Assembly (NCBI GenBank): GCA_003213255.1 | Contig: QCNI01000009.1 | Span: 1-49,352 of the forward strand | Direction: 5' to 3' | Source: Prochlorococcus sp. AG-424-P16 | GTDB lineage: Bacteria > Cyanobacteriota > Cyanobacteriia > PCC-6307 > Cyanobiaceae | DNA: 49,352 nt | Part shown: one piece after another, positions 27,048-38,052 of the stretch | Position numbering within the stretch: the first letter of the stretch is position 1 | Layout: every line of letters starts with the position of its first letter | Made by a program: the position numbers and the translations under genes | Notes under the pieces: generated by a model | Told to the model about the DNA's origin: nothing | Databases searched by the model: none | Seen by the model: only the letters and a program-made list of their open reading frames with translations

Positions 27048-27245
27048 CTAATTAATACTATTTGCGCCTCCACTTACTAAGAAAATTATCGCTCCTAGTG
27101 CCATTGTTGCTACACCCATGTAAGGGTATTTCTTAATTCTTGATTTAGTAATTGGAAGCCATGAAAAGTATCTATCAGATTTATTTAATTCATTTTTTTT
27201 TCTAGGTGGCAATCCTAATTCTTCTCTTCTTTTAGCTTCGCCCAT
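27048..27245 (-). CDS. DUF2839 protein
   Basis: A 65-residue cyanobacterial protein with the diagnostic start MGEAKRREELGLPPRKK and SWLPITKSRIKKYPY, then one membrane helix (MGVATMALGAIIFLVSGG). The basic N-terminus should stay in the cytoplasm or stroma-like side. Function unknown. A second member lies at 29453. It converges with the cassette ending at 27019. Confidence 0.8.
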   Translation of the reverse strand: MGEAKRREELGLPPRKKNELNKSDRYFSWLPITKSRIKKYPYMGVATMALGAIIFLVSGGANSIN

Positions 27246-27653: not shown

Positions 27654-27944
27654 TTACTTAGCTATTCCTATTTTCTTAAGCAATTTTAGGTAAGGCAAGG
27701 CCCAATTACCAAAGGTAAAAGAAATTGTCGTATTTTTTGTAGTTGGTAATAATGTTTTAGAACGTGTAGAGGCTAATTTAGAAAATATCTTAATAGTCTC
27801 TGCTTCTATATTATCCATATACAATTTTTTTTGAACACCTCGATCTTTCTTTTGGGGCAAATAATTTTCTATAAACCATAAAACTTGATCTAAATTTGAT
27901 TTATTGGGTGAGGTTTTAATTTGTTTATTTTTCTCTTTAAACAT
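27654..27944 (-). CDS. Hypothetical soluble protein (96 aa)
   Basis: Lys-rich start (MFKEKNKQIKTSPNKSNLDQ), a helix VLWFIENYLPQKKD, then a segment with many Ser/Thr (SKLASTRSKTLLPTTKNTTI) and an aromatic end (FTFGNWALPYLKLLKKIGI). No domain recognised. Flanked by AT-rich non-coding DNA on both sides. Confidence 0.45.
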   Translation of the reverse strand: MFKEKNKQIKTSPNKSNLDQVLWFIENYLPQKKDRGVQKKLYMDNIEAETIKIFSKLASTRSKTLLPTTKNTTISFTFGNWALPYLKLLKKIGIAK

Positions 27945-28082
27945 ATTTTTTTACCTCTTAATTACTGAATTAAATTTGCCATTTATATAATTTAAATCAA
28001 TAGTAAAAGCATCAAAATTATGTTGTTTTTAATAATCGATAATCGAAAAAATAAATTAATAATTACTTTGTTTTATAAAAAT

Positions 28083-28113
28083 AAAAAAAGAGAGGGCTAA
28101 AACCCCCTCTTAA
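28083..28113 (-). terminator. Terminator of riboswitch-controlled gene
   Basis: AGAGGG at 28091-28096 pairs with CCCTCT at 28105-28110, with flanking AAG/CTT pairs, followed on the minus strand by a run of seven U. It lies 23 bases after the stop at 28136. Confidence 0.8.
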
Positions 28114-28135
28114 TTGATCAGTTTCAAAAAAGAAT

Positions 28136-28306
28136 TTAATTTTTTGAGTCTTTCAATTTAATTTCTTTTTGTGTTTTTCTGATTCTTTCTTCAAAGACGG
28201 ATCTTCTGTATGGAGTAACTTCTCCACTTTTAGTAGCCAAAAGTTGGGCTTCGTATAGCCTATTGGCTCTTTTGATTTTTTCTCTTATTTGTAAGAGTTT
28301 ATTCAT
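28136..28306 (-). CDS. Small basic peptide downstream of putative glutamine riboswitch (56 aa)
   Basis: MNKLLQIREKIKRANRLYEA then QLLATKSGEVTPYRRSVFEE and a Lys-rich helix; 56 residues, basic, probably helical. Glutamine riboswitches of the Downstream-peptide class in picocyanobacteria precede short unannotated peptides of 17-100 codons. Some cyanobacterial relatives of that layout encode glutamine-synthetase-inactivating or other nitrogen regulatory peptides. The charge and helix content would suit such a role, but direct similarity to IF7/IF17 is not evident. There is no good ribosome site, which fits translational control by the leader. Confidence 0.6.
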   Translation of the reverse strand: MNKLLQIREKIKRANRLYEAQLLATKSGEVTPYRRSVFEERIRKTQKEIKLKDSKN

Positions 28307-28331
28307 GGTCTTTTGCAGTTAATGAGAATCC

Positions 28332-28398
28332 CGTTCCCTACTCCCATTTCATGCGTCCAGAGATATAAACTTGGATGAACGTTAGTGTACGATAACGT
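28332..28398 (-). promoter_or_regulatory. Putative glutamine riboswitch (glnA/Downstream-peptide class)
   Basis: On the minus strand the leader reads CGTTCATCC, a short stem (TCCA/TGGA), GGACGCA, a small CAT-GAA-ATG hairpin, GGAGTAGG and GAACG. P1 is CGTTC (28381-28377) with GAACG (28336-28332). These elements, in this order, are the conserved core I remember for this class, including the AGUAGG block. The ATG of the 56-residue gene is 25 bases beyond P1. Just upstream, ACGTTA/TAACGT (28398-28379) can form a hairpin that uses part of the P1 strand. Confidence 0.65.
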
Positions 28399-28495
28399 CT
28401 CTAAAAAAATTCCGCGAGAGTAATTTTTACTAAATTTTTCTCAAAACAATAAATATTGAGTAGATAGTATAAATAAGGTTTTAATATTTCCTAAA

Positions 28496-28771
28496 TTAGG
28501 ATAAGAAAATTGTTTGTGACCCATCATTATTATCTTGAATCACTATTTTTTTATTTGGGAAAATATCTGATAATATTCTTTTCAAATTTGAATTATCTGA
28601 AGGAATTATATTACTCGTATTTTTTGAATTAATTTTCCAATTTTCATCTACAAATAGCTCTTTATCATTATCTTTTTCATTCTCCAGTGATGTCTTATTT
28701 AGAATCTTAAGTAACAGTTCTGAATCATAATCCTTAAATTCTTCAGGGCCCTCTTTTAAATTTTTAATCAT
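28496..28771 (-). CDS. Hypothetical acidic protein (91 aa)
   Basis: MIKNLKEGPEEFKDYDSELL, then an Asp/Asn/Lys-rich, probably disordered middle and an ordered end (LKRILSDIFPNKKIVIQDNN, then DGSQTIFLS). It is soluble, with no recognised domain. It is transcribed towards the riboswitch region, ending about 100 bases before it. Confidence 0.5.
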   Translation of the reverse strand: MIKNLKEGPEEFKDYDSELLLKILNKTSLENEKDNDKELFVDENWKINSKNTSNIIPSDNSNLKRILSDIFPNKKIVIQDNNDGSQTIFLS

Positions 28772-29452: not shown

Positions 29453-29668
29453 TTAAGCTACATTGAAGGATTTAAAAACATAAAATAAACCTCCGATTAG
29501 GATCAATATTGCAGCTCCATAAAAAAGAAAAGGGATAATTGGATATTTATACAAAGTAGACCTTACTTTTTGTTGTATGGCTTTTTTATCAAGTTGAGGC
29601 AACTTTATATCTTCAGTTTTTTCTCTAGGCGGAATGCCTAAATTTTTTCTTCTCTTTGCCTCTCCCAT
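29453..29668 (-). CDS. DUF2839 protein, second member
   Basis: A 71-residue protein. The ATG at 29668 begins the family start MGEAKRRKNLGIPPREK; the frame is open 9 codons more, but those overlap the upstream gene. A charged linker leads to one membrane helix (IPFLFYGAAILILIGGLFYV). Compared with the member at 27048 it lacks the SWLPIT block. It begins 2 bases after the stop of the preceding gene. Confidence 0.75.
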   Translation of the reverse strand: MGEAKRRKNLGIPPREKTEDIKLPQLDKKAIQQKVRSTLYKYPIIPFLFYGAAILILIGGLFYVFKSFNVA

Positions 29669-29670
29669 AA

Positions 29671-29901
29671 TTAAAAATGAGGTATTCCCATACATTTTAA
29701 ATAATTGTTATCAGCTAAATCTAAAACTTGATTCCATTCTTCATGAGATGTTTCCAAATTATTTTTAAAATCTTTTTCAAATTTAAGGATACATCTTTTT
29801 TCTATATTTTCTGGAGAATTATAATTTCTTAAAAAAGAAACACTCAAATACGATAATGATGAAAAAACTACAATTATTTTAGCCATCCTAAAATTGTTCA
29901 T
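29671..29901 (-). CDS. Signal-anchored small protein (76 aa)
   Basis: An N-terminal hydrophobic segment (MAKIIVVFSSLSYLSVSFL, after MNNFR) acts as signal or anchor. The rest is acidic and helical (NIEKRCILKFEKDFKNNLET) with Cys in KRCIL and LKCMGI. It probably faces the periplasm with one disulfide. Co-transcribed with the DUF2839 gene downstream. The start may be Met1 or Met6. Confidence 0.5.
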   Translation of the reverse strand: MNNFRMAKIIVVFSSLSYLSVSFLRNYNSPENIEKRCILKFEKDFKNNLETSHEEWNQVLDLADNNYLKCMGIPHF

Positions 29902-37904: not shown

Positions 37905-37922
37905 ATGAGAAAAAATATTTGT

Positions 37923-37959
37923 AAAAAAAGAGATTGTTTCTTAGCTAAAAACAATCTCT
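37923..37959 (-). terminator. Terminator for minus-strand genes beyond
   Basis: AGAGATTGTTT (37929-37939) pairs with AAACAATCTCT (37949-37959), with a U run on the minus strand. Back to back with the hli terminator; it serves the gene ending at 38053. Confidence 0.85.
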
Positions 37960-38052
37960 AAATTACCTAATTCTTACATGAAAATTTCAAGTAAGCTTTC
38001 AGATCTTAACTGATTAGTTTTTATAGTAAATCCGTAAAAATGCTTTTGTAAT

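Follow-up and report, generated by a model that had tools for sequence, protein, structure and literature searches.

A glutamine-II riboswitch in Prochlorococcus ahead of a small basic protein outside the DUF4278 family, a candidate for negative feedback on nitrogen assimilation

What does a glutamine riboswitch control when the gene behind it encodes only a short, unnamed peptide? The question is raised by a leader on the minus strand of contig QCNI01000009.1 of Prochlorococcus sp. AG-424-P16, which we analysed as one stretch of 49,352 nucleotides (the window). The reading that we favour, with a probability of about 0.65, is that a glutamine-II riboswitch, likely an ON switch, drives a basic, predicted helical protein that is predicted to damp nitrogen assimilation, possibly via glutamine synthetase. 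The aptamer of this unit is known; the peptide family behind it is unstudied and is the interesting part. The elements of the unit, from upstream to downstream, are the following.

28419 to 28431, minus strand: palindrome AGTAA-AAA-TTACT (AGTAAnnnTTACT), a possible transcription-factor site
28389 to 28397, minus strand: extended -10-like element, CGTTATCGT here and TGnTAnnnT in relatives
28322 to 28384, minus strand: Glutamine-II aptamer, with core 28381-28322 equal to the RS01 wild type
28377 to 28381, minus strand: 5' strand of the pseudoknot, CGTTC (position from PMC6698751)
28352 to 28355, minus strand: linking strand CGCA, which lines the glutamine site (position from PMC6698751)
28332 to 28336, minus strand: 3' strand of the pseudoknot, GAACG (position from PMC6698751)
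28307 to 28321, minus strand: linker TAACTGCAAAAGACC, which joins the aptamer to the start codon and presumably acts as the expression platform
28136 to 28306, minus strand: gene of the 56-residue peptide, RLHxAQ family, an open reading frame with codon-position bias
28088 to 28111, minus strand: intrinsic terminator that closes the unit (stem of 10 pairs, loop of 4 bases, T run; fold z -2.79)

In a cmscan of the whole window, RF01704 (Glutamine-II) matches 28384-28322 of the minus strand over its full length (1-60) with 46.4 bits, against a cut-off of 33, and an E value of 3.3e-8. The glutamine riboswitch proposed in the earlier note is thereby confirmed, and the blocks from which it had been recognised are all present in the order given there, namely CGTTCATCC at 28381-28373, GGACGCA, GGAGTAGG and GAACG at 28336-28332 (minus strand). 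The four hits above the gathering threshold in the window do not include Glutamine-I (glnA, RF01739). In addition, a script search finds the 60-base wild-type RS01 aptamer of Prochlorococcus sp., as printed in PMC6698751, once in the window, at 28381-28322 of the minus strand, with 60 of 60 bases identical. Since the crystal and calorimetry RNAs described in that paper carry a shortened P1, the window holds the parent sequence and not the crystallised construct. The same 60-mer recurs in 30 of 105 aptamer-bearing copies of the genus. Among named genome loci, of which the best 80 of 192 were considered, 47 carry it, with titles of Prochlorococcus and a few Synechococcaceae. This identity with RS01 and the recurrence in named loci mean that the aptamer was already known; judged by its sequence, the window leader belongs to the glutamine-II riboswitches (Downstream-peptide class, type 2). 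The source genome has four glutamine-II aptamers, the other three of which sit ahead of YRG peptides.

The conserved linking strand is identical in sequence to that of the RS01 wild type, and a long-range C19:G41 contact with this strand has been described for the P1-shortened crystal variant (PMC6698751). Bases A6 and C17 as numbered in the crystal structure (window positions 28376 and 28355), which are coplanar without a hydrogen bond according to PMC6698751, are often G6 and U17 in other genera: among 90 distinct leaders of the peptide family, positions 6/17 are A/C in 65, G/U in 22 and mixed in 3. The picture is less clear-cut in a larger set of 155, some of them wrongly anchored (104 A/C, 17 G/U, 11 A/U, 10 G/C and 13 others).

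The helix formed by CGTTC and GAACG had been labelled P1. Its pairing stands, while the label does not, as the numbering of PMC6698751 places both strands in the pseudoknot. The pairing is supported by compensatory change in relatives, the check that had been proposed for it: after dropping 10 of the 155 distinct aptamers pattern-matched in the fetched loci, which were wrongly anchored on an upstream CGTTGCTAC (CGTTG), the C5:G36 pair is C:G in 134 and G:C in 11 of the 145 correctly anchored distinct aptamers. All 11 belong to related leaders, and the compensatory change may thus represent one event.

Upstream of the aptamer, TGnTAnnnT is matched by 79 of 88 distinct leaders of relatives. By analogy with Yfr6 in MED4, where a mapped start follows a TATA element (PMC1242208), transcription would start at about 28382, one base ahead of the aptamer; a scan of 27900-28600 for the sigma-70 consensus gave no promoter on the minus strand, which counts against this predicted start. 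The repeat ACGTTA/TAACGT at 28398-28379, earlier taken for a hairpin that competes with P1 and may belong to the switch, is indeed present. The switch role was rejected, however, because the repeat is fully pairable (G-U allowed) in only 31 of the 88 leaders and its left arm overlaps the conserved -10-like element; with a start near 28382, the hairpin would moreover be mostly untranscribed. Further upstream, with its centre near -43 of the predicted start, the palindrome at 28419-28431 is kept with at most one mismatch in 56 of the 88 distinct leaders and is a possible regulator site. Its 16-base form with CTC, AGTAAnnnTTACTCTC, occurs exactly once in the genome, and at up to one mismatch it is found at 4 places versus 3 for a reversed control pattern. 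NtcA recognises the motif GTA-N8-TAC; the palindrome does not match it, and an NtcA site was rejected.

Downstream, the unit consists of leader and peptide only and is closed by its own terminator (28111-28088) after the stop codon, as the earlier note had read it. Small DUF2839-like proteins (MGEAKRR...) flank the unit at 27048-27245 and 29453-29695 of the minus strand (32.1 and 19.8 bits, respectively, against a cut-off of 22), and the window also carries a Yfr19 small RNA at 37915-37996 (minus strand, 95.6 bits). The description of the product as short, basic and helical is in agreement with an AlphaFold2 model from 22 sequences, which predicts helices at residues 3-24 and 35-55 (pLDDT 84); at a pTM of 0.39 the model does not fix how these helices would pack. 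At E up to 1, the window peptide matches no family of Pfam, including DUF4278 (PF14105), or of NCBIfam. Among solved structures none was found by sequence, profile hits were at chance level and the best E of a fold search was 9.7. There was no match in 50,697 phage records, and of 30 stretches of viral contigs that matched a pattern, none was confirmed. The family consensus reads MNxLxLIR..I.KA.RLHxAQL.

How tightly this peptide is coupled to the riboswitch was assessed in both directions. The genus set comprises 116 peptide copies in fetched loci, a subset of all copies found, of which 106 are intact (ATG at residue 1 and at least 43 residues). The aptamer, recognised by its motif, precedes 103 of the 106 intact copies; GGAACGG lies 24 nt from the ATG in 85 of these copies and 23 nt from it in another 16. 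One of the three motif exceptions, L105, scores 31.4 bits in cmscan, just under the cut-off; the other two, L114 and L116, have altered aptamers with no Rfam match. In these two loci (genomes G030 and G029) the conserved aptamer blocks are changed and the frames are still open, that of L116 being cut to 43 residues, so that riboswitch decay would possibly have preceded gene loss. The ten non-intact entries correspond to nine loci. L094 combines an ATT start with an aptamer; L068, likewise starting with ATT, keeps an open frame but gave no aptamer match; and the remaining entries are broken frames, some of which retain the aptamer (L137, 51.2 bits; L138, 36.4 bits).

Outside the genus, 40 plus 15 loci were scanned, which reduce to 52 distinct ones as L353, L354 and L355 equal L269, L274 and L260. 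Rfam Glutamine-II lies upstream in 49 of the 52, at or above the cut-off in 40 and below it in 9 (E up to 0.0086), and was not matched upstream of L245, L256 and L367. Given that these loci were picked by peptide match, they show that the peptide implies the riboswitch and not the converse. For the reverse view, all 79 glutamine-II aptamers of 20 genomes were listed, 19 of these genomes consisting of one or two contigs, and their targets were classed by eye: 49 are of the YRG/DUF4278 type, 24 of the RLHxAQ family (one a broken frame), 1 is a fusion, 4 are membrane-type and 1 is unassigned. Eleven of the 49 are a short form starting with MVNMYFNG or similar, and the one that was scanned has no Pfam match. 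The four membrane-type targets (L332, L333, L334 and L338, two of them in genome G043) make up a third target type, small proteins whose GFLGAF stretch is a likely membrane segment. The 2018 review PMC6316151 ties the glutamine-II class to DUF4278 proteins; in the literature searched we found no description of a non-DUF4278 family behind it, which does not prove absence.

Our results further connect the family with DUF4278 through fusions. Ten proteins from nine genomes of genera g30 and g45 carry the family module first, followed by YRG motifs. In the two fusions scanned, DUF4278 scores 29.2 bits (residues 26-57; cut-off 25.3) and 23.0 bits, the latter below the cut-off, and family profile A2 aligns with the N-terminal module of one fusion at an hhalign probability of 97. 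The peptides themselves hint at a weak resemblance between their C-terminal half and the central YRR segment of DUF4278 peptides, at an hhalign probability of 84 that none of 200 column permutations reached, for segments picked by eye; the whole profiles of both sets give probabilities of 3 to 31. In this regard, DUF4278 forms the N-terminal part of IF17, where it serves stability and is dispensable for inhibition, and the MED4 DUF4278 protein PMM1846 has been proposed to be inactivating-factor-like (PMC6316151). According to the same review, picocyanobacteria appear to be without full-length homologues of the inactivating factors, and glutamine synthetase regulation in marine picocyanobacteria such as Prochlorococcus is called unclear (section 2.7).

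Taken with the riboswitch, a basic, predicted helical protein that would be made at high glutamine and has DUF4278-fused relatives is most simply explained by negative feedback on nitrogen assimilation: the protein, induced at high glutamine, would damp this process, possibly via glutamine synthetase, which is one candidate target. The strongest competitor keeps the same riboswitch and directs the peptide instead at PII, PipX, a transporter or an arginine-pathway enzyme. We regard it as a serious contender, though one that falls somewhat short of an even chance. It draws on the lack of IF7 homology in the peptide and on the existence of small cyanobacterial regulators of other targets, for example the reported PirA, whereas the fusion to DUF4278, the N-terminal part of IF17 (PMC6316151), points loosely to glutamine synthetase, that part being dispensable for inhibition. 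A second small-protein family on the same glutamine sensor, fused to DUF4278 in some genera, offers a concrete candidate for the control of this enzyme.

As to how glutamine would act on the gene, the class binds L-glutamine and raises expression, that is, it is an ON switch and likely a translational one (PMC6698751; PMC6316151), from which we infer the same translational ON direction here. When glutamine is plentiful, the riboswitch would thus likely free the start codon and allow the 56-residue protein to be translated. Without glutamine, the 5' strand of the pseudoknot, CGUUCAU, would pair with the start region AUGAAU, and ligand binding would remove this strand from it. In the minimum-energy fold of the window leader, computed without the pseudoknot, GUUCAU indeed pairs with AUGAAU at the start codon. 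The predicted fold also contains a small hairpin, CTCTT/AAGAG, within the codons CTC TTA CAA ATA AGA G at 28282-28297 (minus strand), which many genus copies keep.

We simulated the accessibility of the start region for 90 distinct leaders that fit the aptamer motif (59 of the genus, 31 of other genera), non-fitting leaders being left out. Holding the two pseudoknot strands apart raises access by 0.091 versus 0.015 in shuffles for the genus and by 0.031 versus 0.018 for other genera; the window copy gains 0.01 versus 0.03. In a second simulation, which replaces the first version and also holds the linking strand apart, the gain is 0.152 versus 0.047 in the genus, where 22 of 59 leaders reach p up to 0.1, and 0.082 versus 0.048 in other genera, where 5 of 31 do so. 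The window copy gains 0.13, a value equalled or exceeded by 42% of its shuffles and hence not significant. The duplex between pseudoknot strand and start region has an energy of -4.2 kcal/mol in the window (percentile 0.178) and a mean percentile of 0.18 over 19 cluster representatives, one of which (L366) is anchored on the wrong start; in comparison, YRG leaders average 0.325 (n=10), which is also below 0.5. As the leaders share common ancestry and the MN start is inherited with it, they are not independent and p values of this ranking are unsafe. Five leaders of other genera show complementarity of the pseudoknot strand to a Shine-Dalgarno stretch, GGAGGAACGU, with duplex energies of -13.0 to -13.6 kcal/mol that at most 0.5% of shuffles reach. 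Together, these findings make strand competition at the start region a weakly supported working model, which has support in the family but does not reach significance in the window copy. In L075, L078 and L080, the linker TTCATAAATTC, inspected by eye, could form a short local hairpin directly with the ATGAA start, which could be another way of hiding the start codon. A window-specific pairing between the loop of P1 (AGTTTAT) and the first codons (ATAAACT), noticed by eye, was dropped, as most relatives have AAC at codon 3 and thereby lose it.

Control of transcription termination in place of translation is improbable. A terminator does belong to the unit; it follows the stop codon, however, a scan found none between aptamer and ATG on the minus strand, and the aptamer ends 15 nt ahead of the ATG.

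Even less probable is that the transcript functions chiefly as a Yfr6-like regulatory RNA with an incidental peptide, an idea that gains some appeal from Yfr6, likewise a glutamine-II transcript, having first been described as a non-coding RNA (PMC1242208). Against it stands the pattern of substitution: over 53 distinct relatives with at least 70% identity, base changes relative to the window fall at codon positions 1, 2 and 3 in numbers of 88, 69 and 367 (367 of 524 at position 3), and synonymous changes account for 254 of the 470 codon changes. This concentration at the third position argues that the 56-residue frame is coding, and the frame stays open in genus copies down to about 54% identity.

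The peptide was found in 191 of 266 genomes of the genus and in 76 of the 87 near-complete ones, and glutamine-II aptamers in 260 of 266 and in all 87, so that the 11 near-complete genomes without the peptide all retain them. In the wider family, profile A1 picks up the peptide in 139 of 400 genomes, spread over 24 of 59 genera, and at its threshold 150 of 250 near-complete genomes are without it. Profile A2 matches 11 of 14 same-family genomes and none of 131 sampled genomes of the class outside the family. Many matches outside the genus span only residues 1-28, which hold the consensus module; what follows it is variable: some proteins are short forms of 33 residues, others reach 59 residues and contain a second RLHxAQ-like stretch, and others have the genus-type end. 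Extra decayed copies were seen at L137, L138, L139, L142, L145 and L146 (genomes G124, G031, G193, G020, G106 and G182), and G020 has five peptide matches, two of them overlapping within one decayed copy. These extra copies suggest repeated duplication and loss.

The distribution of IF7 is the reverse. At E up to 0.001, NF052599 detects IF7 in 92 of the 145 class genomes, 79 of them above the curated cut-off, and in 0 of the 14 same-family genomes within this sample; a search of 151 genomes of the family likewise gave 0 with IF7. The two patterns are complementary; they set one clade against the rest and may therefore record a single event. That the peptide is a diverged IF7, an idea resting on both being small, basic and linked to nitrogen by context, can be set aside as the least probable reading, since NF052599, which detects IF7 at 123.6 bits, leaves the window peptide unmatched at E up to 1 and, with E relaxed to 10, matches neither one relative nor a family sequence close to the consensus, and hhalign gives a probability of 0.6; by these tests we reject homology, in line with the dissimilarity noted earlier.

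Our findings also allow a more ambitious version of the favoured reading to be formulated: picocyanobacteria of this family, in which IF7 was not found, would brake glutamine synthetase by riboswitch-induced MNxLxLIR..I.KA.RLHxAQL proteins of its own, with the pseudoknot strand choosing between its aptamer partner and the start codon, and with the DUF4278 fusion in two genera paralleling IF17. Taken as a whole, we consider this version doubtful.

Set beside known systems, the unit joins familiar and unfamiliar parts. The window aptamer equals RF01704 Glutamine-II in score, fold and full sequence, yet the class as described in the 2018 review (PMC6316151) has DUF4278 targets, whereas this copy controls another family. 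Like the Yfr6/DUF4278 (YRG, PF14105) group, it encodes a small protein behind a glutamine-II aptamer in the same genomes; leaders of the Yfr6 class, however, carry a 5' hairpin GTAGC-AACC-GCTAC and a Shine-Dalgarno-like GGAG, both of which the window leader lacks. With IF7 (GifA) the peptide shares small size, basic character and a role in glutamine feedback, known for IF7 and proposed for the window peptide, and it differs in the lack of detectable homology and in the complementary distribution among the sampled genomes. IF17 (GifB), finally, has a DUF4278 N-terminus under a glutamine riboswitch (PMC6316151), and the g30 and g45 fusions likewise join DUF4278 to a second module behind such a switch; the order of the modules and the second module differ, and the riboswitch is of type 1 for IF17 and of type 2 for the window and the fusions.
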